DNA of 40,334 nucleotides from NCBI RefSeq assembly GCF_010672085.1, contig NZ_JAAHHT010000067.1, positions 1 through 40,334 on the forward strand, written 5' to 3'. The number at the start of each line of letters is the position of its first letter. Positions within the stretch are counted from its first letter, which is position 1. The position numbers and the translations under genes were made by a program. Source of the DNA: Okeania sp. SIO3I5. GTDB lineage: Bacteria; Cyanobacteriota; Cyanobacteriia; Cyanobacteriales; Microcoleaceae. The notes under the pieces were generated by a model that saw nothing but the letters and a program-made list of their open reading frames with translations, made no database searches and had not been told where the DNA came from. This document shows, in pieces, positions 977 through 33,336 of the stretch.

Positions 977-1107
977 GCTAGAATCATTTCCTACTGACTA
1001 CTGTACAGGCGATTCGCGTTTGCAGAGCATTCCGTAGGAAATCGCCCCTACGACTACTGACTACTTGCACTTGAGATTACATTTTGAAGTGCGGAATGTA
1101 GGTTGAA

Positions 1108-1248
1108 TAGACTTGTCGCTTTATAACTTAAAAAATCCTCAAAACCCTTGATATTTAACGATTATAGCTATCAAAAATCTCAAATACCTGGAATTATTAC
1201 TCTGCCTGATTTTGAGCGATTTTTTCCCTCTATTTAGCGACAAGTCTA
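1108..1248. mobile_element. MITE with TAGACTTGTCGCT inverted ends
   Basis: A 141-bp element whose left end TAGACTTGTCGCT is matched by AGCGACAAGTCTA on the right. The interior is AT-rich with no ORF. There is no second full copy in the window, so the boundaries rest on the inverted ends alone. Confidence 0.6.
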
Positions 1249-1438
1249 ATAGTCTTCTGTTCCCTATTCCCTGTTCCCTGTTCCCTAGCGCGTAGCGCTA
1301 TACAACTTGACGTGCGGAATCTGGGTTATATGCTAGATTTTGAAGTGCGGAATGTGGGATCTAAGGAAATAAATCTTCTGATTCTAAGCAATAAACCCAG
1401 TTTCTTGTTTGGGTGTATAAGTCCTGAACTTCTGACTT

Positions 1439-4400
1439 CTAACTTCTCACTTCACTGTTTCCCCCACCACCTGGAGTTTCAATAACAAACACATCTCCTA
1501 CATTCATCTCGACAGTAGCAATACCTCCCAACTCCTCAACTTTCCCATCATTCCGTTCTACATAATTTTTTCCTACTAAACCATTACCTCCACCATTTAA
1601 ACCAGGGGGAGAAACGACGCGACGACTTGATAAGATTCCGGCAGTCATCTCCTCCAAAAAACGCATTCGCCGAATTACTCCATTACCTCCTTTATATAAA
1701 CCTTCACCCCCACTACCAGAACGTATGGCAAAACTTTCCAGTAATACCGGAAACCGCAATTCTAAAACTTCCGGATCGGTTAACCGAGAGTTGGTCATGT
1801 GAGTATGCACTGCATCAGTGCCATGAAAGTTTATACCTGCACCAGAACCTCCACAAATAGTTTCATAATATTGATATTTACTATTACCAAAAGTGAAATT
1901 ATTCATGGTTCCTTGAGATGATGCCATTATTCCTAAAGCATTGTATAAAGTATCAGCGATCGCTTGGGAAGTTTCGACATTTCCTGCTACTACTGCTGCT
2001 GGATATTTTGGGTTTAACATACTGCCTTGAGGAATGATAATTTCTAATGGTTTGAGGCAACCTGCGTTGAGGGGGATATCATCATCAACTAGGGTACGAA
2101 AGACGTATAATACTGCTGCTTTACAAACTGCACTTGGTGCGTTGAAGTTGTTGGGAAGTTGGGGAGATGTACCTGTGAAGTCTATTTTTGCACTGAGATT
2201 TTTTTTGTCGATACTGACAGAAATTGAAATTTTATTATTGTCGTCTAGGATAGAGGTAGCAGTTTTATTGGTGAGTGATGAAGATAATTTTTTGATGGCT
2301 TGGCGTACTGAGTTTTCGGCGTTATTTTGCACAAATTTCATGTAAGTTTGTACGGTTTTTAAGCCATAATTTTCTGTCATTTTTTGCAGTTCTTTTACGC
2401 CTTTTTCATTGGCAGCTACTTGTGCTTGTAAGTCGGCGATATTTTGGCTGGTGTTTCTGGCAGGATATTTGCCGGATGTGAGGATTTCTAATAGTTTTGT
2501 TTCTTGGAATTTTCCGTTTTTGACAAGTTGGAAATTGTCGATTAATATTCCTTCTTCTTCGACTGTTTGACTATGGGGTGGCATGGAACCTGGAGTAATT
2601 CCGCCAATGTCTGCATGATGTCCGCGAGAGGCGACATAAAAGATGGGAGTTGCTATTTTTTCTTCTGTATTTTTAGGGGAATTTAGAGAAATATTTGTCT
2701 GATTCTCCCCAATCAAGTTTTTATTGTTAGGAAGGTTGGCAGACTTTAACTTTTGAGTAGTAGATTTATCCTCTAAAGCAATATCTGTATCGGAGAAAAT
2801 TTCTGGAGTGGAATTAGTTTCCGTCAAAATCTTTGTTGGATTCTCCACCATCAAATTTTCATTGTTAGGAAGGTTGCCAGACTTGAATTTTTGAGTAATA
2901 GATTTATCCCCTAAAGGAATATTTGTATCGGATAAAGTTTCTGGAGTGGAATTAGTTTCAAGAAAAATCTTTGTCTGATTCTTCCCCATCAAGTTTTCAT
3001 TGCCAAGAAGGTTGGCAGACTTTAACTTTTGAGTCAGCAATTTATCATCTAAAGCAATATTTGTATCCGATAAATTTTCGTCACTGGAATTAGTTTCAAG
3101 AAAAATCTTTGTCTGATTCTTCCTCATCAAGTTTTCATTGCCAAGAAGGTTGGCAGAGTTTAACTTTTGAGTCAGCAATTTATCGTCTAAAGCAATATTT
3201 GTATCGGAGAAAATTTCTGGAGTGGAATTAGCTTCAGTCAAAATATTTAGGGAAATATTTGTCTGATTCTCCCCCATCAAATTTTCATTGCCAAGAAGGT
3301 TGCCAGACTTTAACTTTTGAGTAATAGATTTATCCTCTAAAGCAATATTTGTATCCGATAAATTTTCGTCACTGGAATTAGTTTCAAGAAAAATCTTTGT
3401 CTGATTCTTCCCCATCAAATTTTCATTGCCAAGAAGGTTGCCAGACTTCAACTTTTGAGTCAGCAATTTATCATCTAAAGCAATATTTGTATCCGATAAA
3501 TTTTCGTCACTGGAATTAGTTTTAGTCAAAATATTTATATTTAGGGAAATATTTGTCTGATTCTCCCCAATCAAGTTTTCATTGTTAGGAAGGTTGCCAG
3601 ACTTGAATTTTTGAGTAATAGATTTATCCCCTAAAGGAATATTTGTATTGGATAAAGTTTCGTCACTGGAATTAGTTTCAAGAAAAATCTTTGTCTGATT
3701 CTTCCCCATCAAGTTTTCATTGCCAATAAGGTTGGCAGACTTTAACTTTTGAGTCAGCAATTTATCGTCTAAAGCGATATTTGTATCCGATAAATTTTCG
3801 TCACTGGAATTAGTTTCAAGAAAAATCTTTGTCTGATTCTTCCCCATCAAATTTTCATTGCCAAGAAGGTTGCCAGACTTCAACTTTTGAGTCAGCAATT
3901 TATCGTCTAAAGCAATATTTGTATCGGAGAAAATTTCTGGAGTGGAATTAGCTTCAGTCAAAATATTTAGGGAAATATTTGTCTGATTCTCCCCCATCAA
4001 ATTTTCATTGCCAAGAAGGTTGCCAGACTTTAACTTTTGAGTAATAGATTTATCCTCTAGAGCAATATTTGTATCCGATAAATTTTCGTCACTGGAATTA
4101 GTTTCAAGAAAAATCTTTGTCTGATTCTTCCCCATCAAATTTTCATTGCCAAGAAGGTTGCCAGACTTTAACTTTTGAGTCAGCAATTTATCGTCTAAAG
4201 CAATATTTGTATCCGAGAAATTTTCGTCACTGGAATTAGTTTTAGTCAAAATATTGAGGGAAATATTTGTCTGATTCTCCCCAATCAAGTTTTCATTGCC
4301 AAGAAGGTTGGCAGACTTTAACTTTTGAGTCAGCAATTTATCGTCTAAAGCGATATTTGTATCCGATAAATTTTCGTCACTGGAATTAGTTTCAAGAAAA

Positions 4401-7400
4401 ATCTTTGTCTGATTCTTCCCCATCAAATTTTCATTGCCAAGAAGGTTGCCAGACTTTAACTTTTGAGTAATAGATTTATCCTCTAAAGCAATATTTGTAT
4501 TGGAGAAAATTTCTGGAGTGGAATTAGCTTCAGTCAAAATATTGAGGGAAATATTTGTCTGATTTTCCCCAATCAAGTTTTCATTGCCAAGAAGGTTGCC
4601 AGACTTTAACTTTTGAGTCAGCAATTTATCGTCTAAAGCGATATTTGTATCCGATAAATTTTCGTCACTGGAATTAGTTTCAAGAAAAATCTTTGTCTGA
4701 TTCTTCCCCATCAAATTTTCATTGCTAGGAAAGTTGCCAGACTTTAACTTTTGAGTAATATATTTATCATCTAAAGCGATATTTGTATCCGATAAATTTT
4801 CGTCACTGGAATTAGTTTCAGTCAAAATATTATTGTTCTTGTTTTGCCAATCCTGCTTTGCAATTACAGAAGAATCTTTTGGTTTTTGTAGAGTTGGAAA
4901 TACGGGAGTAATAACTGTTATGTCTGGCAGATGAGTACCGCCATTGTAAGGATTATTTAAAACATAAACATCTCCTGGTTTGAGGATGTCGCTTTTCTCA
5001 GAAATTAAAGCATTAACACTTTCACTCATCGAACCTAAATGTATAGGAATGTGAGGAGCATTAGCAACTAATTCACCATCTTGATCAAATATGGCGCAGG
5101 AAAAATCTAGTCTTTCTTTGATGTTTACTGAAGAACTGGTGTTTTGTAATGTAATTCCCATTTGTTCGGCGATCGCTCGAAATAGATTATTAAATATTTC
5201 TAGCATTACGGGATCTGCTGAGGTGGAAATTTTGTCTTCAGATTTACCGATTATCTCTACGGATTTTTCTGTAGTTTGAGTTTTGGTTAAAATTAGGTGA
5301 TTTTTGGCAGTTAATTCTGCTTCCCATCCAGGTTCGATAATATTGGTTCCGGTTTTTTCAATTATTAAGGCAGGACTATTAATTTTGTCTCCTACTTGTA
5401 AATTTTCTCGGAAATAAATAGGAGTATTATGCCATTTTCCTGCTGTATAAACTTGTGTTGTTGCAGTTGGAGTTGTCGGAGATTTTTGGGTGGAAAATTT
5501 ATCTATTTCTTCTGGGATTTCCATTTGCTTAATAACTTCTAGAGAAACAGCTTCAACTATTAAGGATTTTTCTGCCATGAGAAATCCATATCTTTGTTGA
5601 TGAGCTGTTTCAAATTCAGCTTTTATTGTCGAGACATTTTCGGCAAAGTCTACTATTAATGTTGAGTCACTACCTTGATATTTGAGGTGAACTTTTAATA
5701 ATAAAGATGTAACAGCAGTATCTTGCTTATCAAAATTATTCCTTTCTGAAATTAAATCTGTTGTAGATTCTAAATCTGAATTTTCCGACGAAAAACTTTC
5801 TGCTATTAACTTTTGTTTAGCTTGAGTTTCTGACAAAGGTGTAACAGAAGCATCTTGCTTGTCAAATGTAGATTCTAAATCTGAATTTTCCGACGAAAAA
5901 CTTTCTGCTATTAACTTTTGTTTAGCTTGAGTTTCTAACAAAGGTGTAACAGAAGCATCTTGCTTGTCAAATGTAGATTCTAAATCTGAATTTTCCGACG
6001 AAAAACTTTCTGCTATTAACTCTTGTTTAGCTTGAGTTTCTGACAAAGGTGTAACAGAAGTATCTTGCTTGTCAAATGTAGACTCTAAATCTGAATTTTC
6101 CGACGAAAAACTTTCTGTTATTAACTCTTGCTTTGCTTCAATTTCTAACTTAGAAAAAATCCCCTTCAACTCTGACAATAATTCCGGAGTTAGTATTTTT
6201 TCAACCGCCTTTTCCTTCATCACTCGAATATCTGCTAATCCCATTCCATAAGCAGATAAAACTCCCGCGTAAGGATGAATAAAAATTTGTTTCATTCCCA
6301 AAGCATCAGCAATTAAACAAGCGTGTTGCCCTCCCGCTCCGCCAAAACAACAAAGAGTATATTCCGAAACATCATAACCCTTTTGCAAAGAGATTTTTTT
6401 AATCGCATTCGCCATTTTTTCCACAGCAATAGCTAAATATCCACTTGCCACCTCTTCCGGTTTTTTACTATTACCTATTTCTGCTGCTAACTGAACAAAC
6501 TTTTCTCTAACAACCTCCAAATTTAAAGGTAGATTTCCATCCTTACCAAAGACTTTAGGAAAAAAATCTGGCTGTATTTTTCCCACCATTAAATTACAAT
6601 CTGTAACTGTTAAAGGTCCCCCTTTTCCATAAGCAGCAGGTCCGGGATTTGCTCCAGCAGATTCAGGTCCGACACGATATCTAGCACCATCAAAAAATAA
6701 AATTGAACCTCCACCAGCAGCAACAGTATGTATCGACATCATCGGAGTTCGTAATCTTACTCCTGCAATTTCTGTTTCAAATTCTCGTTCATATTCTATT
6801 GTTTTATTTGCTGCTCCGGCGTAATGAGCAACGTCAGTAGAAGTACCTCCCATATCAAAACTAATTATCTTGTGAAAACCTGCCATTTTACTTGTTTGAA
6901 CTGCTCCAACAATTCCACCAGCAGGACCAGATAAAATACTATCTTTACCTTGAAATTTTTGAGCATCTGTCAAACCACCATTCGACTGCATAAACATTAG
7001 TTTGACTGGATTTATTTTTGAGGCATTTTTACTCCTCAAACTATCTTTTTCTAAGTTAAAAATTAAATCTTGTTTCTCCTCTTTTTGGTCTCCTAAATAA
7101 ATCTCTATTTTTTCCCTTTCTAAAGAATAGTTTTGTTTGACTGGATTTATTTTTGAGGCATTTTTACTCCTCAAACTATCTTTTTCTAAGTTGAAAGTTA
7201 AATCTTGTTTCTGCTCTTTTTGGTCTCCTAAATAAATCTCTATTTTTTCCCTTTCCAAAGAAGAATTTTCCTGAAAAATCTTATGATCTTCTCCCGAATT
7301 TTCAGACGATTCTAAATAACTGCTAACTTGCTCAACATATCGTCGTAAAATTGGTGATAAATAAGCATCAACTACAGTAGTATCTCCCCGACTAATTAAT

Positions 7401-8026
7401 TTCATTAAAGGACTAACTTCATGGGAAACAGATATTTGAGTAAATCCAATTTCTTGAGCAATTTCCTTGATTTTTTGTTCGTGTTTCGGATAGCGATAAC
7501 CGTGCATCAATACAATAGCGCAACTTCTAATTCCTTCGTTGTAAGCGGTTTCAAGTTTAGGAATTAATTCTGTTTTCTGAAGAGGAATTATTTCCTCACC
7601 TTTAACTGTGTAACGACACTCAACTTCGATAACTTTTTCATAAAGCATTTCCGGCAAAATAATTTGCCTGGCAAAAATATTAGGGCGGTTTTGATAACCA
7701 ACTCTTAGAGCATCTTTAAAACCCTTATTAATAACCAAAACTGTGCGATCGCCTTTCCTTTCCAATAAAGCATTAGTCGCAACAGTAGTACCCATTTTAA
7801 TAACTTCTATTTCTTGAGAAGGTATAGGTTCATTTTGAGAAATTCCTAATATTTCTCTAATTCCTTGAACCGGTGCGTCGGGATAGCGATCTGGATTTTC
7901 TGATAGTAATTTATGAATAATAATTTTACCGTCGGGAGACTTAGCAACTATGTCTGTAAATGTACCTCCACGGTCAATCCAAAATTGCCAACGGTTGTTA
8001 GTAATCAATGTGTTAGTCATGTTCAT
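1439..8026 (-). CDS. ATP-dependent 5-oxoprolinase / hydantoinase A-B fusion with large internal repeat arrays
   Basis: Family members hydrolyse 5-oxoproline to glutamate with ATP, or a related cyclic amide, in the cytoplasm. The N-terminal half is HyuA-like: WIDRGGTFTDIVA near residue 17, FDMGGTSTDVA, MFMQSNGGLTDA and FGGAGGQHAC. The HyuB-like half starts near residue 930 (PVMLEIFNNLFRAIAEQMG, then NPYNGGTHLPDI and FYVASRGHHADIGG) and ends in TPGGGGNSE. Fused enzymes are usually about 1200-1250 residues; this one has 2195. The excess is three hydrophilic repeat blocks at roughly residues 240-343, 622-775 and 1064-1783. Removing them leaves about 1220 residues with the core motifs in normal order. 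Every repeat unit is a multiple of three bases and no stop occurs, which suggests that the frame is under selection. The ATG at 8026 is used; a second ATG two codons on is equally possible, and neither has a clear Shine-Dalgarno. The exact substrate is not certain. Confidence 0.93.
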   Translation of the reverse strand: MNMTNTLITNNRWQFWIDRGGTFTDIVAKSPDGKIIIHKLLSENPDRYPDAPVQGIREILGISQNEPIPSQEIEVIKMGTTVATNALLERKGDRTVLVINKGFKDALRVGYQNRPNIFARQIILPEMLYEKVIEVECRYTVKGEEIIPLQKTELIPKLETAYNEGIRSCAIVLMHGYRYPKHEQKIKEIAQEIGFTQISVSHEVSPLMKLISRGDTTVVDAYLSPILRRYVEQVSSYLESSENSGEDHKIFQENSSLEREKIEIYLGDQKEQKQDLTFNLEKDSLRSKNASKINPVKQNYSLEREKIEIYLGDQKEEKQDLIFNLEKDSLRSKNASKINPVKLMFMQSNGGLTDAQKFQGKDSILSGPAGGIVGAVQTSKMAGFHKIISFDMGGTSTDVAHYAGAANKTIEYEREFETEIAGVRLRTPMMSIHTVAAGGGSILFFDGARYRVGPESAGANPGPAAYGKGGPLTVTDCNLMVGKIQPDFFPKVFGKDGNLPLNLEVVREKFVQLAAEIGNSKKPEEVASGYLAIAVEKMANAIKKISLQKGYDVSEYTLCCFGGAGGQHACLIADALGMKQIFIHPYAGVLSAYGMGLADIRVMKEKAVEKILTPELLSELKGIFSKLEIEAKQELITESFSSENSDLESTFDKQDTSVTPLSETQAKQELIAESFSSENSDLESTFDKQDASVTPLLETQAKQKLIAESFSSENSDLESTFDKQDASVTPLSETQAKQKLIAESFSSENSDLESTTDLISERNNFDKQDTAVTSLLLKVHLKYQGSDSTLIVDFAENVSTIKAEFETAHQQRYGFLMAEKSLIVEAVSLEVIKQMEIPEEIDKFSTQKSPTTPTATTQVYTAGKWHNTPIYFRENLQVGDKINSPALIIEKTGTNIIEPGWEAELTAKNHLILTKTQTTEKSVEIIGKSEDKISTSADPVMLEIFNNLFRAIAEQMGITLQNTSSSVNIKERLDFSCAIFDQDGELVANAPHIPIHLGSMSESVNALISEKSDILKPGDVYVLNNPYNGGTHLPDITVITPVFPTLQKPKDSSVIAKQDWQNKNNNILTETNSSDENLSDTNIALDDKYITQKLKSGNFPSNENLMGKNQTKIFLETNSSDENLSDTNIALDDKLLTQKLKSGNLLGNENLIGENQTNISLNILTEANSTPEIFSNTNIALEDKSITQKLKSGNLLGNENLMGKNQTKIFLETNSSDENLSDTNIALDDKLLTQKLKSANLLGNENLIGENQTNISLNILTKTNSSDENFSDTNIALDDKLLTQKLKSGNLLGNENLMGKNQTKIFLETNSSDENLSDTNIALEDKSITQKLKSGNLLGNENLMGENQTNISLNILTEANSTPEIFSDTNIALDDKLLTQKLKSGNLLGNENLMGKNQTKIFLETNSSDENLSDTNIALDDKLLTQKLKSANLIGNENLMGKNQTKIFLETNSSDETLSNTNIPLGDKSITQKFKSGNLPNNENLIGENQTNISLNINILTKTNSSDENLSDTNIALDDKLLTQKLKSGNLLGNENLMGKNQTKIFLETNSSDENLSDTNIALEDKSITQKLKSGNLLGNENLMGENQTNISLNILTEANSTPEIFSDTNIALDDKLLTQKLNSANLLGNENLMRKNQTKIFLETNSSDENLSDTNIALDDKLLTQKLKSANLLGNENLMGKNQTKIFLETNSTPETLSDTNIPLGDKSITQKFKSGNLPNNENLMVENPTKILTETNSTPEIFSDTDIALEDKSTTQKLKSANLPNNKNLIGENQTNISLNSPKNTEEKIATPIFYVASRGHHADIGGITPGSMPPHSQTVEEEGILIDNFQLVKNGKFQETKLLEILTSGKYPARNTSQNIADLQAQVAANEKGVKELQKMTENYGLKTVQTYMKFVQNNAENSVRQAIKKLSSSLTNKTATSILDDNNKISISVSIDKKNLSAKIDFTGTSPQLPNNFNAPSAVCKAAVLYVFRTLVDDDIPLNAGCLKPLEIIIPQGSMLNPKYPAAVVAGNVETSQAIADTLYNALGIMASSQGTMNNFTFGNSKYQYYETICGGSGAGINFHGTDAVHTHMTNSRLTDPEVLELRFPVLLESFAIRSGSGGEGLYKGGNGVIRRMRFLEEMTAGILSSRRVVSPPGLNGGGNGLVGKNYVERNDGKVEELGGIATVEMNVGDVFVIETPGGGGNSEVRS
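2680..4835 (-). repeat. in-frame array 3 in the oxoprolinase: 15 units of 46-50 codons
   Basis: This array lies in the HyuB half between ITVITPVFP and PIFYVASRGHHADIGG, which are adjacent in ordinary family members. The units are of two types. One is 46 codons, beginning IFLETNSSDENLSDTNIAL. The other is 46-50 codons, beginning NILTEANSTPEIFSDTNIAL and mostly ending in ENQTNISL. They partly alternate, giving a higher-order dimer. The base period is 138 bp, measured between starts at 2971 and 3109. Composition is rich in N, S, D, E, K and L with no Cys or Trp, so a disordered or helical loop is likely. Confidence 0.9.
5715..6165 (-). repeat. in-frame array 2 in the oxoprolinase: 4 units of 35 codons
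   Basis: TTTTCCGACGAAAAACTTTC recurs at 5781, 5886, 5991 and 6096, an exact 105-bp period. The unit encodes FSSENSDLESTFDKQDASV followed by TPLSETQAKQ. The block sits near the end of the HyuA half, before LLKVHLKYQGSD. It is unrelated in sequence to the other two arrays in this gene. Confidence 0.9.
6995..7270 (-). repeat. in-frame array 1 in the oxoprolinase: 2 units of 45 codons
   Basis: TTTGACTGGATTTATTTTTG starts at 7001 and again at 7136, a 135-bp period. The unit encodes SLEREKIEIYLGDQKEQKQ and continues to KNASKINPVK. It separates YVEQVSSYLESS from LMFMQSNGGLTD, which normally lie close together in HyuA. Confidence 0.9.
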
Positions 8027-8391
8027 ATTAATTTTAGAGATAATAATTATAATTTTTTTTGGTCAAAGATGGTAAAAGTTATACCCATACTAAATTATCA
8101 AACATAATCTGATGGGATTTTTCATAATTATTTCTGCATACTAAGTTCAATGTGTAAAAAGAGTCTGATAATTATTCCTGATTCGGTCAAAAATAAAGTT
8201 TTGTCAAATTGTTTTCTTCAATTAATTAGTAGTCGAGCAAAATTAATTGTATATATTACCGACAAATTAAGGTATACACCCTTTCCATTCATGGATAAAA
8301 AAGAAATTTTTTTCTTTTAGCTAATCCTCTTATTTATAACAAGAATTAATTATTAATAATTAATTGTTGAATCAGGTAGATTTTCTTTTCC
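8027..8391. other. AT-rich spacer upstream of the oxoprolinase gene
   Basis: There is no gene or clear repeat element apart from a run of ATTAATTA-type repeats near 8340-8366, which resembles the tail of the TTACCG MITE family. The promoter of the minus-strand oxoprolinase gene must lie here, but no consensus boxes stand out. Confidence 0.5.
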
Positions 8392-8883
8392 CTATTCCCC
8401 TTCATATAAAGTCCCTTCAGAAATTGCCATTGGTTCCATTTCCGTTTCCAAATTTTCCTGATTACCCATTTCTCGTATCCATCTCAAAAGTGTATTTGCT
8501 AACCTTGTTGCTATAACAGTTCCTTCAAAATTAAAATCAGGATTTTGTAAACCCTTTCCCAGCATTTGTTTACCTATATCTGTAATGAAAACCAATACCG
8601 CTCTATTTTTTACCTCAATTCTAATTGCTCCTGATTTTTCTAATTCCTCATATACTGCTTGATATTTACCGATTTTTTTACCGTATTTTTTCCGTTTAAC
8701 TCTAGTAGTTAATTCACTTTTTTTTACTCCTATAGCTGTTTCTCCTTCTCCTCCTAAATCCCATAAAGTAAGTAGTAAACGAGTTTTATTTATATCCTCA
8801 ACACTTTCCTTTCCAATAGTTTCATTATTATCCTCTAAATTAATATTTGTTTCTGTTCCTAAACTATGATTTTCTGTTGACAT
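8392..8883 (-). CDS. hypothetical protein, possible winged-helix-like domain
   Basis: This 163-residue protein has an acidic, Asn/Glu-rich first 30 residues, a basic middle (LTTRVKRKKYGKKIGKYQAV, then a short helix and EKSGAIRIEVKNRAVLVFIT) and an acidic tail. The helix-helix-strand pattern in the middle resembles a small winged-helix fold, but I do not recognise a family. I take the ATG at 8883, which follows AAGGAAATTTGGAG on the minus strand. A TTG two codons upstream is also in frame and less likely. It is monocistronic by spacing. Confidence 0.6.
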   Translation of the reverse strand: MSTENHSLGTETNINLEDNNETIGKESVEDINKTRLLLTLWDLGGEGETAIGVKKSELTTRVKRKKYGKKIGKYQAVYEELEKSGAIRIEVKNRAVLVFITDIGKQMLGKGLQNPDFNFEGTVIATRLANTLLRWIREMGNQENLETEMEPMAISEGTLYEGE

Positions 8884-15959: not shown

Positions 15960-16500
15960 TAGAATTTAGAATTTAAAATGTAGAATTTAGAATTCTTAAA
16001 TTTTATAGCGCTAGGGAATAGGGAGTAGGGAATAGGAAACTGTCAAAGGGTTTCAGTATTTACAAATGTCCTCACCTATTTGCCTAGTGCTATACAAGTA
16101 GTTGTACTGAGAATTTAGAATTTAAAATAATGTAGAATGTAGAATTTAGAATTCTAAAATTTTATAGCGCTAGGGAATAGGGAACAGGGAATAGGGAGTA
16201 GGGAATAGGAAACTGTCAAAGGGTTTCAGTATTTACAAATGTCCTCACCTATTTGCCTAGTGCTATACAAGTAGTTGTACTGAGAATTTAGAATTTAAAA
16301 TAATGTAGAATGTAGAATTTAGAATTCTAAAATTTTATAGCGCTAGGGAATAGGGAACAGGGAATAGGGAGTAGGGAATAGGAAACTGTCAAAGGGTTTC
16401 AGTATTTACAAATGTCCTCACCTATTTGCCTAGTGCTATACAAGTAGTTGTACTGAGAATTTAGAATTTAAAATAATGTAGAATGTAGAATTTAGAATTA
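15960..16500. repeat. tandem array of a 173-bp unit, about three copies
   Basis: TGCCTAGTGCTATACAAGTA recurs at 16081, 16254 and 16427, an exact 173-bp period. Each unit contains AATTTAGAAT repeats, TATAGCGCTAGGGAATAGGG, further AGGGAATAGGG heptamers and the block GTCAAAGGGTTTCAGTATTT. The first unit is about 20 bases shorter through loss of heptamers. The unit is the TATAGC(A/G)CTA element plus flanking sequence, amplified as a whole. Confidence 0.85.
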
Positions 16501-16639
16501 TTAAAATTTATAAGTAGTTGTACTTTTAGGAATTTTCTAGTTGAGAACAGGAACAGGGAAAAGAGAACAAGGGAAAAGAGAACAGGAAATAGAGAATAGG
16601 AAATAGGGAATAGGAGCTATTCGGTTATCAGTTATTAGT

Positions 16640-19233: not shown

Positions 19234-19319
19234 TGAAGTCAGAAGTTAGAAGTCAGAAGTCAGAAGTTACAAGTTAGAAGTTAAAAGTTAGAAGTTAGAA
19301 GTTAAATTCTTACTGTGAC

Positions 19320-19950
19320 TAAATTTGAAGATTTGAGAATGTTGTAATTAGTGTAGGGGTTTGGTCTCCAAACCCTTATATTTTTAGGAATTTGAAATTG
19401 AGAATTTGAAATTGTGGATGTAGCTAAATTGGAAGATTTGAGAATGTTGTAATTAGTGTAGGGGTTTGGTCTCCAAACCCTTATATTTTTGGGAAGTCAG
19501 AAGGCGGGAATTGAGAATTTGAAATTGTGGATGTAGTTAAATTGGAAGATTTGAGAATGTCGTAATTAGTGTAGGGGTTTGGTCTCCAAACCCCTATATT
19601 TTTAGGAATTTGAAATTGTGGATGTAGCTAAATTGGAAGATTTGAGAATGTTGTAATTAGTGTAGGGGTTTGGTCTCCAAACCCTTATATTTTTAGGAAT
19701 TTGAAATTGAGAATTTGAAATTGTGGATGTAGCTAAATTGGAAGATTTGAGAATGTCGTAATTAGTGTAGGGGTTTGGTCTCCAAACCCCTATATTTTTG
19801 GGAATTGAGAATTTGAAATTGAGAATTTGAAATTCTGGATGTAGCTAAATAGGAAGATTTAAGAATGTCGTAATTAGTGTAGGGGTTTGGTATCCAAACC
19901 CCTATATTTTTGAGAATTTGAAATTGAGAATTTGAAATTCTGGATGTAGC
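19320..19950. repeat. six-copy tandem array with a GGGGTTTGG hairpin in each unit
   Basis: GTGTAGGGGTTTGG recurs at 19351, 19456, 19569, 19660, 19765 and 19877, giving periods of 91-113 bp. Each unit carries the hairpin GGGGTTTGG-tct-CCAAACCC(C), then a variable number of GAATTTGAAATT repeats, then GGATGTAGCTAAATTGGAAG. Length variation lies in the GAATTTGAAATT part. If transcribed, the array would give a chain of identical hairpins. Confidence 0.85.
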
Positions 19951-19979
19951 TAAATATAGATATTGCTCAAACCCTACTG

Positions 19980-27322: not shown

Positions 27323-30300
27323 TTATCTATTATCCACTGCTCCCAATGCTTTGAGGCTGTCTTTTTGGGCGTTGCTTAATCCTGTGACTCCGGTAATGTT
27401 GGCGTTTTCATAAGGTCTGGGTACTCTCAGGGTTTTGATGCACTCTCCTGTTTTGATGTTCCAGAGTTTAATTGTTTCGTCGGCGCTACTGCTGGCAAGA
27501 ATTTGACCGTCGGGGTGGAATGCTACTGCTAATACCCAACTTTGATGCCCGCTAAAGGTGGCGTAGGGTTCGTGGGTGTTAACGTTCCACAAGCGCACGG
27601 TGTAGTTTTCTGATCCATTGGCCAATAGTTGACCGTCTGGACTGAAGGCAATTGAATAATGCCATACTTGTTGACCTTCAAAAACCGCGAGGCATTCTTG
27701 GGTGCTAAAATTCCACAAACGAGCTGTTTTGTCACGGCTGCTAGTTGCTAATAGCTTACCATCAGGGCTGAAAGTAACTGACACAATCTCTGCTTGATGT
27801 CCTTGGAAACTGCTTAGATTTTCATCTGTCTCAATGTCCCACAATTGAACAATAGGCTCAACTCCACCAACAGCTATTTTCTTACTATCTGGGCTGATGG
27901 CAATTGCAAAAACTTTCGATTTGTAGTGGCTGGGTAAAGTTTTCCGTTGCTGCTTTGTCTTGACATCCCACAACTTTATAGAGCGAGACTCTCCAGCACT
28001 AATCAATAAGCTGCTGTCAGGAGTAAAAGCAATAGAATGTACTACGTCTGTATATCCACTCAAAGTTGTTAAATATTCCCTGGTAGTCACATTCCATAAC
28101 TTAACAGTAAAATCGAAACTTCCACTAGCTAGAGTTTTACCATCAGGACTAAAAGCAACTGATTGCACACGCTCCTGATGTTTCTGGAAATTTGCTACTA
28201 TTTTCTCCTCTTTTATATTCCAAAGTTTCACCGTATAGTCATCACTACCACTAGCTAAGGTCTTGCCATCAGGACTAAAAGCAATTGAGCGAATCCAATT
28301 TCCCCAACCTCCTAGAGTATTTTGGAGTTTTAGGTTATCAATATTCTCAAGACTATACAAATTTACTTTGTTATCACTAGCACTACTGGCTAAAATCTTT
28401 CCATCAGGACTAAAAGCAACCTGATGCAGCCAAGAGGTATGTTCTCGTAAAGTATTAAGTAGTTGTGGGCGATCGCTATGGCTAACATCCCATAATTTTG
28501 CAGTTAGATCGCCACTGCCACTGGCAAGCATTTTTCCATCTGCGGAAAAAGCTAGCCCTCTTACTAGATTATCATGGGCAGGAATAGTAACAGCCAGGGA
28601 AATATTTTTGATATCTCTAATATCCCAAAGTTTAATAGTAAAGTCAAGACTACCACTTGCCAAGATTTTACCATCGGGTCTAAAAGCAATAGTGCGGACT
28701 GCTTCTTCATGTCCTGATAAAGTGGCTAAACATTCACCATTATTGACACTCCATAGCTTGATGTTTCTATCTTGGCTAGCAGTTGCTAAAATTTCTCCAC
28801 TTGGACTAAACACTACTTTGTTTATCCAACTTGTATGTCCTTGTAAGATAGCTAAATATTTGCCATCGCTAAGATTCCATAATTTGATTGTCCCATCTAT
28901 GCTACCAGTAGCTAAGAGTTGGATATTTGCACTCAAGGCAGTAGCTTTTATAGATTCAGAATCTATTAGTAAACTTCTCAAACATTTACTGCTTACCAAG
29001 TTCCAAAATTTTACTGTTTTGTCAGAACTAGCGCTAACTAGAGTTTGACCATCCGCAGAAAATTTTACGGTTTTGATCGCATTGGTATGACCTTCCCAAG
29101 TCAAAACTTTTTTACCATCGGCAACTTGCGACAAATGAATTTTGCCAGACTCATCCCCCGTTGCCAGGAGTTTACTATCGGGAGTAAAAGCTAAAGACCT
29201 AACTATACCCAGAGACTCCAGAAAAATAGAATCAGCCAGATTTGCCTCAGTCAAATTAACATCCTGCAAGCTTGCACCTACAAAATTAGCTCCCAAAATG
29301 ACAGTCTGACTCAAATCGCAACCCTCCAAAGCAGCATTATTGCTTTTCACTAACAAAGTTGCAGCATTGCCACCCACATAACCAACCTCGTCAACTGTTT
29401 TCCCTCGCGTCGCTTCCACAACTTCCCGTAACTTCTGGCAGGTTTGCGCTGCCGTTGTTTCCCTAGAAAGCATTGGTAACAACAAATCCAGAACCGCTTT
29501 CGCCAGAGGCATCTCTCCAAAAGTGGTACGCAAACGCTCCAGAGATTCTCTAGAAAAAGTTTTTAGAGGAGGCGCAACAGAAAGAACCTTCCCCTGAGCA
29601 TCCACTTCCCGCTGGAAATAATTAGACCAAGTGTACTCCTGGGCAGTTGCCTCTGTGTTGACATAAGACTGCGCCGCTGCAACTTCCACAAAATCTGGAG
29701 GCAATACCCCCAACTCGGCAGCAAACTTATAGGCAACAAAAAACTCTAACAACGAACGATGCGCCGGACTGTAATCCCCATCCTCATTGCGGATCAACAT
29801 TGTCTGACCCATCATGTCAAAATGCCAGTGGTCTAAATCTTTTTGTTCTTCGACTTTGCTTCCAAACAAACGGCGAATGCGGTCTGGAAATTCCCGATAG
29901 TTGAGACTCATCTTGTCACTAGATAACATTTCCCAAGAAAGTTCGCAAAGAAAATACAACTTATCCGCTAGAGAAGTAAAAGTCCGCCCTTCTTTAATAT
30001 CTCGTTCCATCTTGTGTTTCACCGCATACAAATAAAGCCGTGCCAAGTCGATCGCTTTCCCTGCTTCTATATCTGGCAGCGCCTCCAGAATTAACTCGCT
30101 CATCACCGGACGGCGAGCTAAATCTAATAATTGAGAATTACCCATCACTTTTTCCACCGTTGCGGGTTCAGTCTGAAAGGAAAGTACCTGACGAATTTGG
30201 TCGTCGTTAAATTTTTTCAGTTCCAACACTTCAAACTGTGGAGGTTCCCCAGTCAAGTTAGCCACAGAAGCTTGCAACTCGGCATTTAGTAAAGCGCGAC

Positions 30301-31525
30301 CTTCCTTAGCTTCGGGAAAATGCTCGGTGCGACAAGTGAGAATCACCTTAGCTCCGGGCACCACCGTTTGTGCTAACTCCCAAAAATTATTAATCATCTT
30401 TTGCCGATCTACCTTAGCTGCCATCTCGTCAAAACCGTCAAAAATTACCAACAACTTACCCATGCGGTTGAGCAGTTCAAAAGCAGAATAACCAGGCAGT
30501 GGAATTTCGTGTTGCCGGAAAAAGAACTCCGAAAACAGAGATTTCATATTAACTGCCTTAGCATAGTCCCGCAACAAGATAACTAGAGGCAAGCGCGGAC
30601 GTTCCACCCCTCGCTTTTTAGCATCCAAATAGCGCTGCAACTGTTCCCAAGCGTAGTGAAACACAAACCAAGTTTTGCCAGTACCGAACTCGCCCAAAAC
30701 CGAAAGATGTTTTTTCGCCGGATCGCCCTGCCATCGATCAACATAACCATCTATCCAGCCATCATCTTCATCGTAGTGACTCACTCCGATTTTTTGTTTA
30801 GTGTTGGGGTCAACCTCTGCCTTGCTACAACCGAGGGGCACATATTTAACATCCATACCCCGCTGTTTGACTTGTTCCTCCAACCACTGACAATAACGAC
30901 TAAAGTCCGCTTCTTGGTCTATGAGTTCGTCAAAAGTGTAGCAAAATAAGTTTTGGTTTTCTGGCTTTTTGACTTCATCGCGAGCAGCTTTACTAATACG
31001 AAAAACTGCCACTAACCAACCCTCATCCGTTCTTTCGTTAATTACAGACTGACGCAAAGCATTTAGTTCCCAAGGTTCTGCCTCCCCTTCCACTCCTCGA
31101 ACCAGGATGCGATCGTATCCGCGACGAGTTTTAATTTTGATAATCCATTCAAACCACCTTTTACCTTTTTTCTCCTCACGGTGGTAGTCTGTAAACTCGT
31201 AGCCAAGAATTTCAAACCATTCTTTCATCTGTTTCGGTAGGAGGAAATTGTGGCGATCGCTATCTCGTTTAATTTCAGCTTCTACAACCAATCGAAAATT
31301 CTTATTAGTGACTTTTTGCCCGCATAAATCTCCCAGTATTTTCCATAATTTAGCTGCTTCCAGTTTGATATTTCCCTCAGTAGAATATATTTTTAGTGCA
31401 ATTTCTTTATATTTTTCACCTTCCCAAGCCAAGCAAAAAATACTTTTTTGCAAGTCGCTCAAACTTTTTTCTTTTTGGTTAAAATATTGATTATTTACAA
31501 ATTCAAAAGCTGTTTCTCTGTTCAT
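27323..31525 (-). CDS. NACHT-type NTPase with N-terminal HTH-like domain and 14 WD40 repeats
   Basis: This 1400-residue STAND-type signalling ATPase is of the class that includes bacterial NLR-like defence proteins. In order: residues 1-80 ([10 protein letters not shown] ... [20 protein letters not shown]) resemble the helical N-terminal domain of cyanobacterial vWA-MoxR-associated/NACHT proteins; 100-220 is a mixed domain ([20 protein letters not shown]) that may be a degenerate restriction-endonuclease-like fold; Walker A GEFGTGKT at 278-285; Walker [11 protein letters not shown] at 358-367; then helical NACHT parts, a short pentapeptide stretch ([19 protein letters not shown]) and 14 WD40 units, enough for two seven-bladed propellers. 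The first ATG, 31525, begins at the conserved domain; the open frame extends to a TTG at 31597. It stands alone, convergent with Uma2 copy 3. Confidence 0.88.
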
Positions 31526-31599
31526 TTTTTTTATAAACTGTAATTTATTGGCAACTATTATATTTTCTTCTACTAGCAAATGCCAGCTTTTTATCAAAA

Positions 31600-31850
31600 T
31601 TCTAACTTTTCCTAACTTTTTTAATAGGCATATATACCGTTTCTCTGTTGGATGAGGTACACCTACGATCCCCCTAAATCTCCCTTGAAAAGGGGGACTT
31701 TGAAGTTCTAACTTTTTCTAACTTTTTCAATAGGCATATATAGCGTTTCTCTGTTGGATGAGGTACACCTACGATCCCCCTAAATCCCCCTTGAAAAGGG
31801 GGACTTTGAATCCCCCTAAATCCCCCTTGAAAACGGGGACTTTGAAGTTC
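31600..31850. repeat. two tandem copies of a 120-bp block directly upstream of the NACHT gene
   Basis: Both copies contain TAGGCATATATA, CGTTTCTCTGTTGGATGAGG and TACACCTACGATCCCCCTAA, followed by a CCCCCTTGAAAAGGGGGACT hairpin (a third hairpin follows at 31810-31842). They begin about 75 bases before the chosen start codon, so they may contain duplicated regulatory sequence. Confidence 0.75.
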
Positions 31851-32300: not shown

Positions 32301-32324
32301 AACAAAAACTAACTCTAACCTCTA

Positions 32325-33336
32325 ACGTTTTCTAACTATTAAAACTCAATTATTCCCTAAAGTTGAGATGACAAAATAAATTGCTCAGTGAGGTGATCGC
32401 TAGATAGATATCTTACCATAATACTAACTAAAACTAACTCTAAGTTTTCACATTTTCTAACTATTAAAAATAAATTATTTCCTAAGATTTAGATGACAAA
32501 AAAAAACTCAGTGAGGCGATCGCTAGATAGATATCTTGCCATACTACCAATTAAAACTAACTCAAACCTCTAACGTTTTCTAACTATTAAAACTCAATTA
32601 TTCCCTATATAGTAGAGGGCGAATGCCATTCGCCCCTACATAAGGTGTCTGGTTTCGTATTTTGCCTAAGTCCTGTATTACAAAATAAATCGCTAAGTGA
32701 GGCGAGCGCTAGATAGATATCTTGCCCTACTACTAACTCAAACTAACTCAAATTCTTCACGTTTTCTAACTATTAAAACTCAATTATTCCCTAAAGTGGA
32801 GATAACAAAATAAATCGCTAAGTGAGGCGATCTCTAGATATGTATCTTGATCTATTACTAACTCAAACTAACTCTAACCTCTAACGTTTTCTAACCATTA
32901 AAACTCAATTATTCCCTAAAATAGATGTTACAAAATAAATCGCTAAGTGAGGCGATCGCTAGATAGATATCTTGCCCTACTGCTAATTAAAAACAACTCT
33001 AACCTCTAACGTTTTCTAACTATTAAAACTCAATTATTCCCTAAAGTGGAGATAACAAAATAAATCGCTAAGTGAGGCGATCTTTAGATAGATATCTTGC
33101 CCTACTACTAACTAAAACTAACTCTAACCTCTAAGGTTTTCTCACCATTAAAACTCAATTATTCCCTAAAGTGGAGATAACAAAATAAATCGCTAAGTGA
33201 GGCGATCGCTAGATAGATATCTTGCCCTACTACTAACTAAAACTAACTCAAATTATTCACGTTTTCTAACTATTAAAACTCAATTATTCCCTAAAATTGA
33301 GATAACAAACAAAATCGCTAAGTGAGGCGATCGCTT
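32325..33336. repeat. eight-copy tandem array, 125-bp unit with HIP1 site
   Basis: GTGAGG(C/T)GATCGC-type sequence recurs at 32389, 32511, 32697, 32822, 32947, 33072, 33197 and 33322. The period is exactly 125 bp in the last five intervals, 122 in the first, and 186 in the second, where a fragment with GGGCGAATGCCATTCGCCC is inserted. Each unit runs AACTCAATTATTCCCTAAAG, AAATCGCTAAGTGAGGCGAT, CGCTAGATAGATATCTTGCC, then CTAACT-rich sequence ending CTAACGTTTTCTAACTATT. There is no ORF. Both ends show more divergence than the middle, as expected for an array homogenised by unequal exchange. Confidence 0.9.

Follow-up and report, generated by a model that had tools for sequence, protein, structure and literature searches.

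Rickettsia palindromic elements are in-frame repeats that lie inside coding sequence, in families found in many genes. PARCEL coding repeats reportedly also sit in frame inside coding sequence, with families spread over many genes. Yang, Meng and Liu are said to have described, in Mol Microbiol in 2004, a DnaB intein of Trichodesmium erythraeum that holds large tandem repeats. In Plasmodium, proteins exceed their homologues in length through hydrophilic, asparagine-associated inserts that are presumed to be pushed out of the protein core, as PMC2705789 relates of work by Pizzi and Frontali. Among literature titles and abstract openings, a coverage outside which most subscription journals fall, no description was found of repeats in the enzyme considered here, or of tandem repeats inside Trichodesmium or Okeania genes.

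The genome of Okeania sp. SIO3I5 (10.5 Mb in 562 contigs) presents a related case. The stretch analysed, called the window, is the whole of its contig C527 (40,334 nucleotides). It carries a gene for a fused 5-oxoprolinase/hydantoinase-type enzyme with tandem arrays in three linkers: sites 1 and 2 in the HyuA half, and site 3 in the HyuB half (Table 1).

An enzyme with three long loops

No stop interrupts the reading frame of 2195 codons. A Pfam scan of the protein finds Hydant_A_N, Hydantoinase_A, Hydant_A_C, and Hydantoinase_B in a single chain and in family order; the Hydantoinase_B match falls into two stretches, and the break is the third array. The best solved-structure matches are to N-methylhydantoinase and to a chain that is named 5-oxoprolinase within entry 6yra, itself titled caprolactamase. 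Among the best 80 relatives of the enzyme, the top four come from Okeania sp. SIO1I7, Trichodesmium sp. MAG_R02, Okeania sp. SIO2C9, and Hydrocoleum sp. CS-953. The whole genome yielded no second gene copy, both of its Hydantoinase_B matches being the two parts of this one gene. Judged by domains and matches, the product is a 5-oxoprolinase/hydantoinase-type enzyme, and an ordinary member of the OplAH/HyuAB family save for its loops. Elsewhere in the window, at 27323-31597, a frame of 1424 residues has a NACHT-associated domain and WD40 repeats.

Table 1. Positions of the predicted gene, its halves and expanded loops in the window, and of repeats in the Planktothrix enzyme genes
Feature	Position	Strand	Basis
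oplAH/hyuAB-type fused 5-oxoprolinase/hydantoinase gene, 2195 aa	1439..8026	(-)	ATG start, single frame
HyuA half: Hydant_A_N, Hydantoinase_A, Hydant_A_C; holds sites 1 and 2	5222..8026	(-)	Pfam
HyuB half: Hydantoinase_B, broken up by site 3	1439..5221	(-)	Pfam
Site 1 loop, 111 aa; holds array 1 (7000-7269, 135 bp x 2.0)	7001..7333	(-)	Tandem Repeats Finder and loop boundaries
Site 2 linker, 172 aa; holds array 2 (5762-6149, 105 bp x 3.7)	5693..6208	(-)	Tandem Repeats Finder and loop boundaries
Site 3 loop, 752 aa; holds array 3 (about 2685-4831)	2642..4897	(-)	Tandem Repeats Finder and loop boundaries
C/G-rich repeat in Planktothrix enzyme gene (G017)	L045:2177-2356, L045:4211-4369		
C/G-rich repeat in Planktothrix enzyme gene (G026)	L048:4219-4377	numbered on minus strand	

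Loop lengths at sites 1 to 3 were obtained by anchor matching, and the end points of the site 1 loop were computed from a structure-chain alignment together with the loop lengths; pieces of the window itself (L001-L008) are omitted from the counts. Between aligned stretches the window enzyme has 97, 159, and 752 residues where 7hk5_A has 4, 37, and 6. Among loci listed outside the Trichodesmium/Hydrocoleum/Okeania group, most have loops of about 11-20, 40-50, and 6-20 residues at sites 1, 2, and 3 respectively, and the longest reach 82, 73, and 53.

Tandem Repeats Finder reports array 3 as 14.9 copies of a 138-bp row. It comprises 15 units, spaced 46, 50, or (one time) 52 residues apart (138-156 bp), and its longest exact repeat is 178 bp. 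The loop at site 3 has a high content of N, L, T, S, and K. No significant likeness is found among the three array units (P 0.13, 0.08, and 0.92; 2000 shuffles each); the resemblance between units 1 and 3, with an uncorrected BLASTP E of 0.001, did not prove significant in the shuffle test. A match of the array to the Pfam family VapB_antitoxin (E 4.5e-6) uses 12 residues many times over, with no single stretch passing, and was taken as a repeat-summed chance match.

Much of this anatomy was foreseen in the original prediction, made from the letters of the window. It described a complete 5-oxoprolinase frame, in agreement with the open frame and its full, ordered set of HyuA and HyuB domains, and a gene nearly doubled, in agreement with a protein excess of about 967 residues (normal loops being taken as 15, 45, and 8). 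The arrays were said to be mutually unrelated, which the shuffle tests bear out; to be multiples of three, as are the periods of 135 and 105 bp and the array 3 spacings of 46, 50, and 52 codons; to lack stops, and none is present; and to lie between segments that are normally adjacent, as the shorter linkers of relatives at each site and the split Hydantoinase_B match indicate. Its repeat counts stand for array 1 (two of 135 bp) and for the 15 units of array 3, but array 2 holds 3.7 rather than four copies, and the spacing in array 3 extends beyond the 150 bp given.

AlphaFold2 models add a view of the loops. In the HyuB half of Trichodesmium MAG_R02, residues 114-186, which make up most of the single-copy insert, have pLDDT below 50, and they are flanked by two well-modelled strands (100-107 and 194-201). 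This model matches seven solved chains at E <= 0.001 (9h03, 6yra_B, and acetone and acetophenone carboxylase subunits). In the HyuA half of the window enzyme, residues 640-770 (site 2, array 2) have pLDDT below 50. Sites 2 and 3 are predicted to be disordered, site 3 as judged in the Trichodesmium relative. For the loop at site 1 (232-342) the model shows not plain disorder but helices, of low to fair confidence, which prolong the preceding helix. Alignment with relatives and placement on a structure, proposed as a check along with the original prediction, put the arrays in linkers, with the site 3 homologue between its two strands.

A constrained core and nearly neutral repeats

Substitution ratios place the enzyme core under strong purifying selection. 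Over nine genome pairs, three of them including the window, four core segments have pN/pS of 0.02-0.20 (some pair and segment combinations were not computable); in the HyuA C-terminal stretch it is 0.06-0.44, again over nine pairs. Of the columns that are invariant in 40 relatives, defined separately for each half, the window enzyme retains all 171 on the HyuB side, and on the HyuA side 145 of 146. Core purifying selection and the retention of invariant positions together make the enzyme look alive. The sole HyuA exception is residue 100, which is Asn in the window protein and Thr in all 40 aligned relatives.

The loops give higher ratios. Single-copy site 3 loops have pN/pS of 0.62-0.83. Between units within one genome, the ratio is 0.92 in the window, 1.1 in G003, and 0.59-0.69 in three Okeania; between groups it is 0.69 overall. 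(Units truncated by shorter spacing are omitted from the within-genome comparison. Units L044_1 and L046_1, which have unrelated left halves, are kept in it, and the G018 value of 0.69 includes L046_1; both are excluded from the unit tree, the composition, and the motif test.) These values suggest that the repeats evolve nearly neutrally, and that their amino-acid sequence is hardly constrained. A shifted-frame control gives 0.32-1.28, with no steady difference from the true frame; this fits near neutrality, and it shows that unit comparison alone does not reveal the coding frame. Near neutrality of this kind is compatible with a role that depends on length or composition.

Openness of the frame, by a different line of evidence, is constrained in the array 3 loop. 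The site 3 loop of the window has 0 stops in its own frame and 29-78 in each of the other five. Across four lineage groups, about 8 nonsense changes are expected from the distinct synonymous changes and 0 are seen (Poisson P about 3e-4), in a rough test, since it counts changes against a consensus and its copies have common ancestry. L046_1 is left out of this test, and L044_1 and L040_1 belong to no group.

Probable growth and collapse among relatives

Close relatives differ widely in unit number at site 3. The Trichodesmium-type genomes G001, G004, and G005 have an 85-residue loop with one unit, and Hydrocoleum has 101 residues, likewise with one unit. G003 has six units up to the contig end, its match reaching contig base 1 inside the array. 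Three Okeania genomes have 11 (G018), 14 (G027), and 14 (G030) units, beside the 15 of the window. Two others, G012 and G023, have a 67-residue loop in which the core pattern was matched in G012 and not in G023, although the two are alike by eye. No match to the enzyme was present in G006, a genome of the same genus group as the window that is 81% complete.

By eye, G012, G023, and G018 have in common a left boundary without the first half of the unit, and later units of G018 have that half. Because G012 and G023 share the boundary of an array whose later units hold the missing half, their short loops are best read as the probable collapse of an array.

In the unit tree, the five full G003 units lie on one side of a branch (98/93), and the 15 units of the window stand together with the single Hydrocoleum unit (99/97). 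Support for most inner branches is weak (21 of 36 drawn open), and units of the three Okeania intermix. The units appear, then, to group by lineage, with weak inner support. Site 2 is expanded in the window (172 residues) and in G003 (190). Site 1 measures 67-104 residues in the four Okeania in which it could be measured and 69 in G003; in G018 it holds the heptamer GGGAACA in runs.

Planktothrix has something else at the same places. In G017 and G026, unrelated sequence occupies site 1 (60 residues) and site 3 (53 residues), and site 2, as defined here, is unexpanded (41 residues). A C/G-rich repeat of some 40 bp opens the site 3 insert. Searches with this insert give at least 36 matches in G017, at least 39 in G026, and 11 in G029. 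Among the matches listed, three in G017 and four in G026 lie within the enzyme gene; in each case sites 1 and 3 have one match apiece, with the rest elsewhere in the gene. Sites 1 and 3 have thus come to hold different repeats from one genus to another.

Repeats elsewhere in the genome

Protein searches of the whole genome with units 1, 2, and 3 gave no match outside this gene at E <= 0.01, weak other matches appearing at E 0.5. DNA searches of 60 sampled stretches and the rest of the window gave none better than E 0.05; 20 codon-shuffled control queries produced 23 matches at E <= 0.1. In these protein and DNA searches, then, the array units did not show up as copies of a dispersed repeat.

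The same 60 stretches (911 kb, about a quarter of it from contig C1) contain 86 arrays with a period of 30 bp or more and a span above 150 bp, covering 5.9% of bases. The period is divisible by three in 22 of 22 arrays within open frames of 150 residues or more versus 19 of 64 outside, a contrast partly built into the comparison, because with many copies an array keeps a frame open more readily when three divides its period. The arrays in open frames belong to 18 frames, of which 17 were scanned with Pfam (7 at E <= 0.001, 10 at E <= 1e-12; L217:16058-16687 was left out). Repeat proteins of the TPR, WD40, FG-GAP, or cadherin type account for eight of these 17. The other nine include HlyD-like, DHH/RecJ-like, nitrite/sulfite reductase-type, SNF2-type, and toxin-like frames, along with four that have no match at the cut-off. 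Among the 17 scanned frames, the Pfam level shows no clear case of a metabolic enzyme whose array separates two conserved blocks, the SNF2-type frame L179 being one that cannot be judged. In-gene arrays are thus common here, but inter-block arrays in a metabolic enzyme are not clearly met again in this sample.

Individual frames vary in the position of their arrays. In the HlyD-like frame, the arrays precede the matched stretch. The DHH/RecJ-like frame (L207:14077-16791) has a long N/S/K-rich repeat array C-terminal of the matched domains, running into unknown bases; the nitrite/sulfite reductase-type frame (L215:1188-3893, 902 residues) has a 48-bp array (TTLGQE..SQ.VAPTAP) near its C-terminus, beyond the matched domains. 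The SNF2-type helicase frame (L179:1-3228) matches an intein and LAGLIDADG, with a 126-bp array after them where the contig ends. A Tc-toxin-like frame of 1705 residues (L211:7364-12478), with ABC_toxin_N, Neuraminidase-like, and VRP1 matches, has a 228-bp array. Within the window, further minisatellites lie outside long frames at 16013-16512, 19319-19956, 31600-31846, and 32301-33335, and 7-bp tandem repeats are numerous elsewhere.

A model for the expansion

These results quite probably describe a live enzyme whose three linkers were lengthened by tandem duplication, in a genome rich in repeats and with the reading frame as the only filter. The linkers would have been already long, in the single-copy form seen in relatives, and disordered before expansion. 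The mutational step would be replication slippage or unequal recombination between copies. Selection would discard changes that break the frame or create a stop, because the enzyme segments on either side must be translated as one chain. It would hardly see the sequence or copy number of the repeats, because the linkers presumably protrude from the fold, without harm and perhaps without function. Such weak selection would allow copy number to rise and fall between species. Some observations run counter to a neutral reading: three loops of one enzyme have expanded, none of the 17 other scanned frames is a clear parallel, and array 1 is modelled as helices rather than plain disorder.

The original prediction had held that something repeatedly expands sequence inside loops of this gene while translation is still selected. 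Three separate in-frame expansions, a selected frame, and expanded relatives agree with this, and the same 46-residue unit recurs in the window, in G003, and in three Okeania; no sign was seen of insertion from outside. At sites 1 and 3, the fillings across genera comprise unique minisatellites, runs of a heptamer, and a dispersed C/G-rich repeat. A broader and rather doubtful proposal is that the linkers of this enzyme form a lasting reservoir for in-frame repeats in this cyanobacterial family, giving a length-variable coat that could be kept because it alters assembly or turnover.

Alternative explanations

The arrays could instead be adaptive, their disordered Asn/Leu/Thr/Ser-rich sequence serving as a multivalent tether or scaffold, either to assemble the enzyme into larger bodies or to capture a partner. 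Several genera have long loops at sites 1 and 3, and the composition of the site 3 loop would suit such a role. Within the unit, the candidate for a conserved motif was DDKSITQKLKS, whose pN/pS (0.39) is lower than that of every other 11-codon stretch, but this minimum is ordinary under a codon-column shuffle (P 0.51), and the overall ratio between groups is 0.69. Close relatives, moreover, manage with a single unit, and in Planktothrix sites 1 and 3 are filled by unrelated sequence. The scaffold is accordingly judged unlikely. An error of assembly in the copy number is far less credible than that. The assembly is a draft, array 3 contains the 178-bp exact repeat, and the G003 match ends at contig base 1, within its array; but the units differ among themselves, and arrays of the same unit stand at the same place in four other assemblies (G003, G018, G027, and G030). 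The exact count of 15 for array 3 is nonetheless uncertain.

The original prediction also allowed that the segments are removed from the RNA or the protein, and both routes are disfavoured. In the protein version, the segments would be translated and then cut out or off, in an intein-like manner or by proteolysis, leaving a working enzyme of normal length. A frame kept free of stops fits such removal, and HyuA and HyuB are separate frames in several loci, so a nicked chain could work. However, the protein has no intein or homing-endonuclease match at E <= 1, and site 3 lies inside HyuB, away from the HyuA/HyuB junction; this version is improbable, though less so than the assembly error. Removal from the RNA ranks lowest, with hardly any probability left to it. 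Nothing was found in its support: the region 1000-8500 of the window has no Rfam match at the gathering score, group I and II introns included, and although splicing would tolerate stops in the removed segment, 0 occur against about 8 expected. Tandem duplication filtered for frame accommodates these observations best.

Comparison with known systems

With duplication in frame as the favoured reading, the natural series of 1, six or more, 11, 14, 14, and 15 units, together with the probable collapses, offers a view of intragenic minisatellite growth and shrinkage in a bacterial enzyme under selection. The series is also relevant to how marine cyanobacteria with repeat-rich genomes accommodate repeats within genes. 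Such arrays may also break assemblies, as where the G003 contig ends inside one.

In its domains and their order, the enzyme is the same as described OplAH/HyuAB proteins (PF05378, PF01968, PF19278, PF02538; PDB 7hk5 and 9h03, N-methylhydantoinase, and 6yra, caprolactamase). Unlike PARCEL and Rickettsia palindromic elements, the units of the window are confined to one gene; the Planktothrix inserts, with their dispersed repeat, come nearer to those families. The DnaB intein reported from T. erythraeum shares large in-frame tandem repeats and the same cyanobacterial group, but its repeats lie inside a self-removing intein, whereas the window enzyme has no intein match.

Intragenic minisatellite dynamics of this kind are better known from Plasmodium. 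The low-complexity inserts described there resemble the present case in an enlarged protein and an N-rich insert, with site 3 of the window rich in L as well. The cyanobacterial case differs in occurring in a bacterium; in its long, non-homopolymeric units of 35-52 residues; and in having three separate arrays within a single enzyme, their unit numbers varying among related species.
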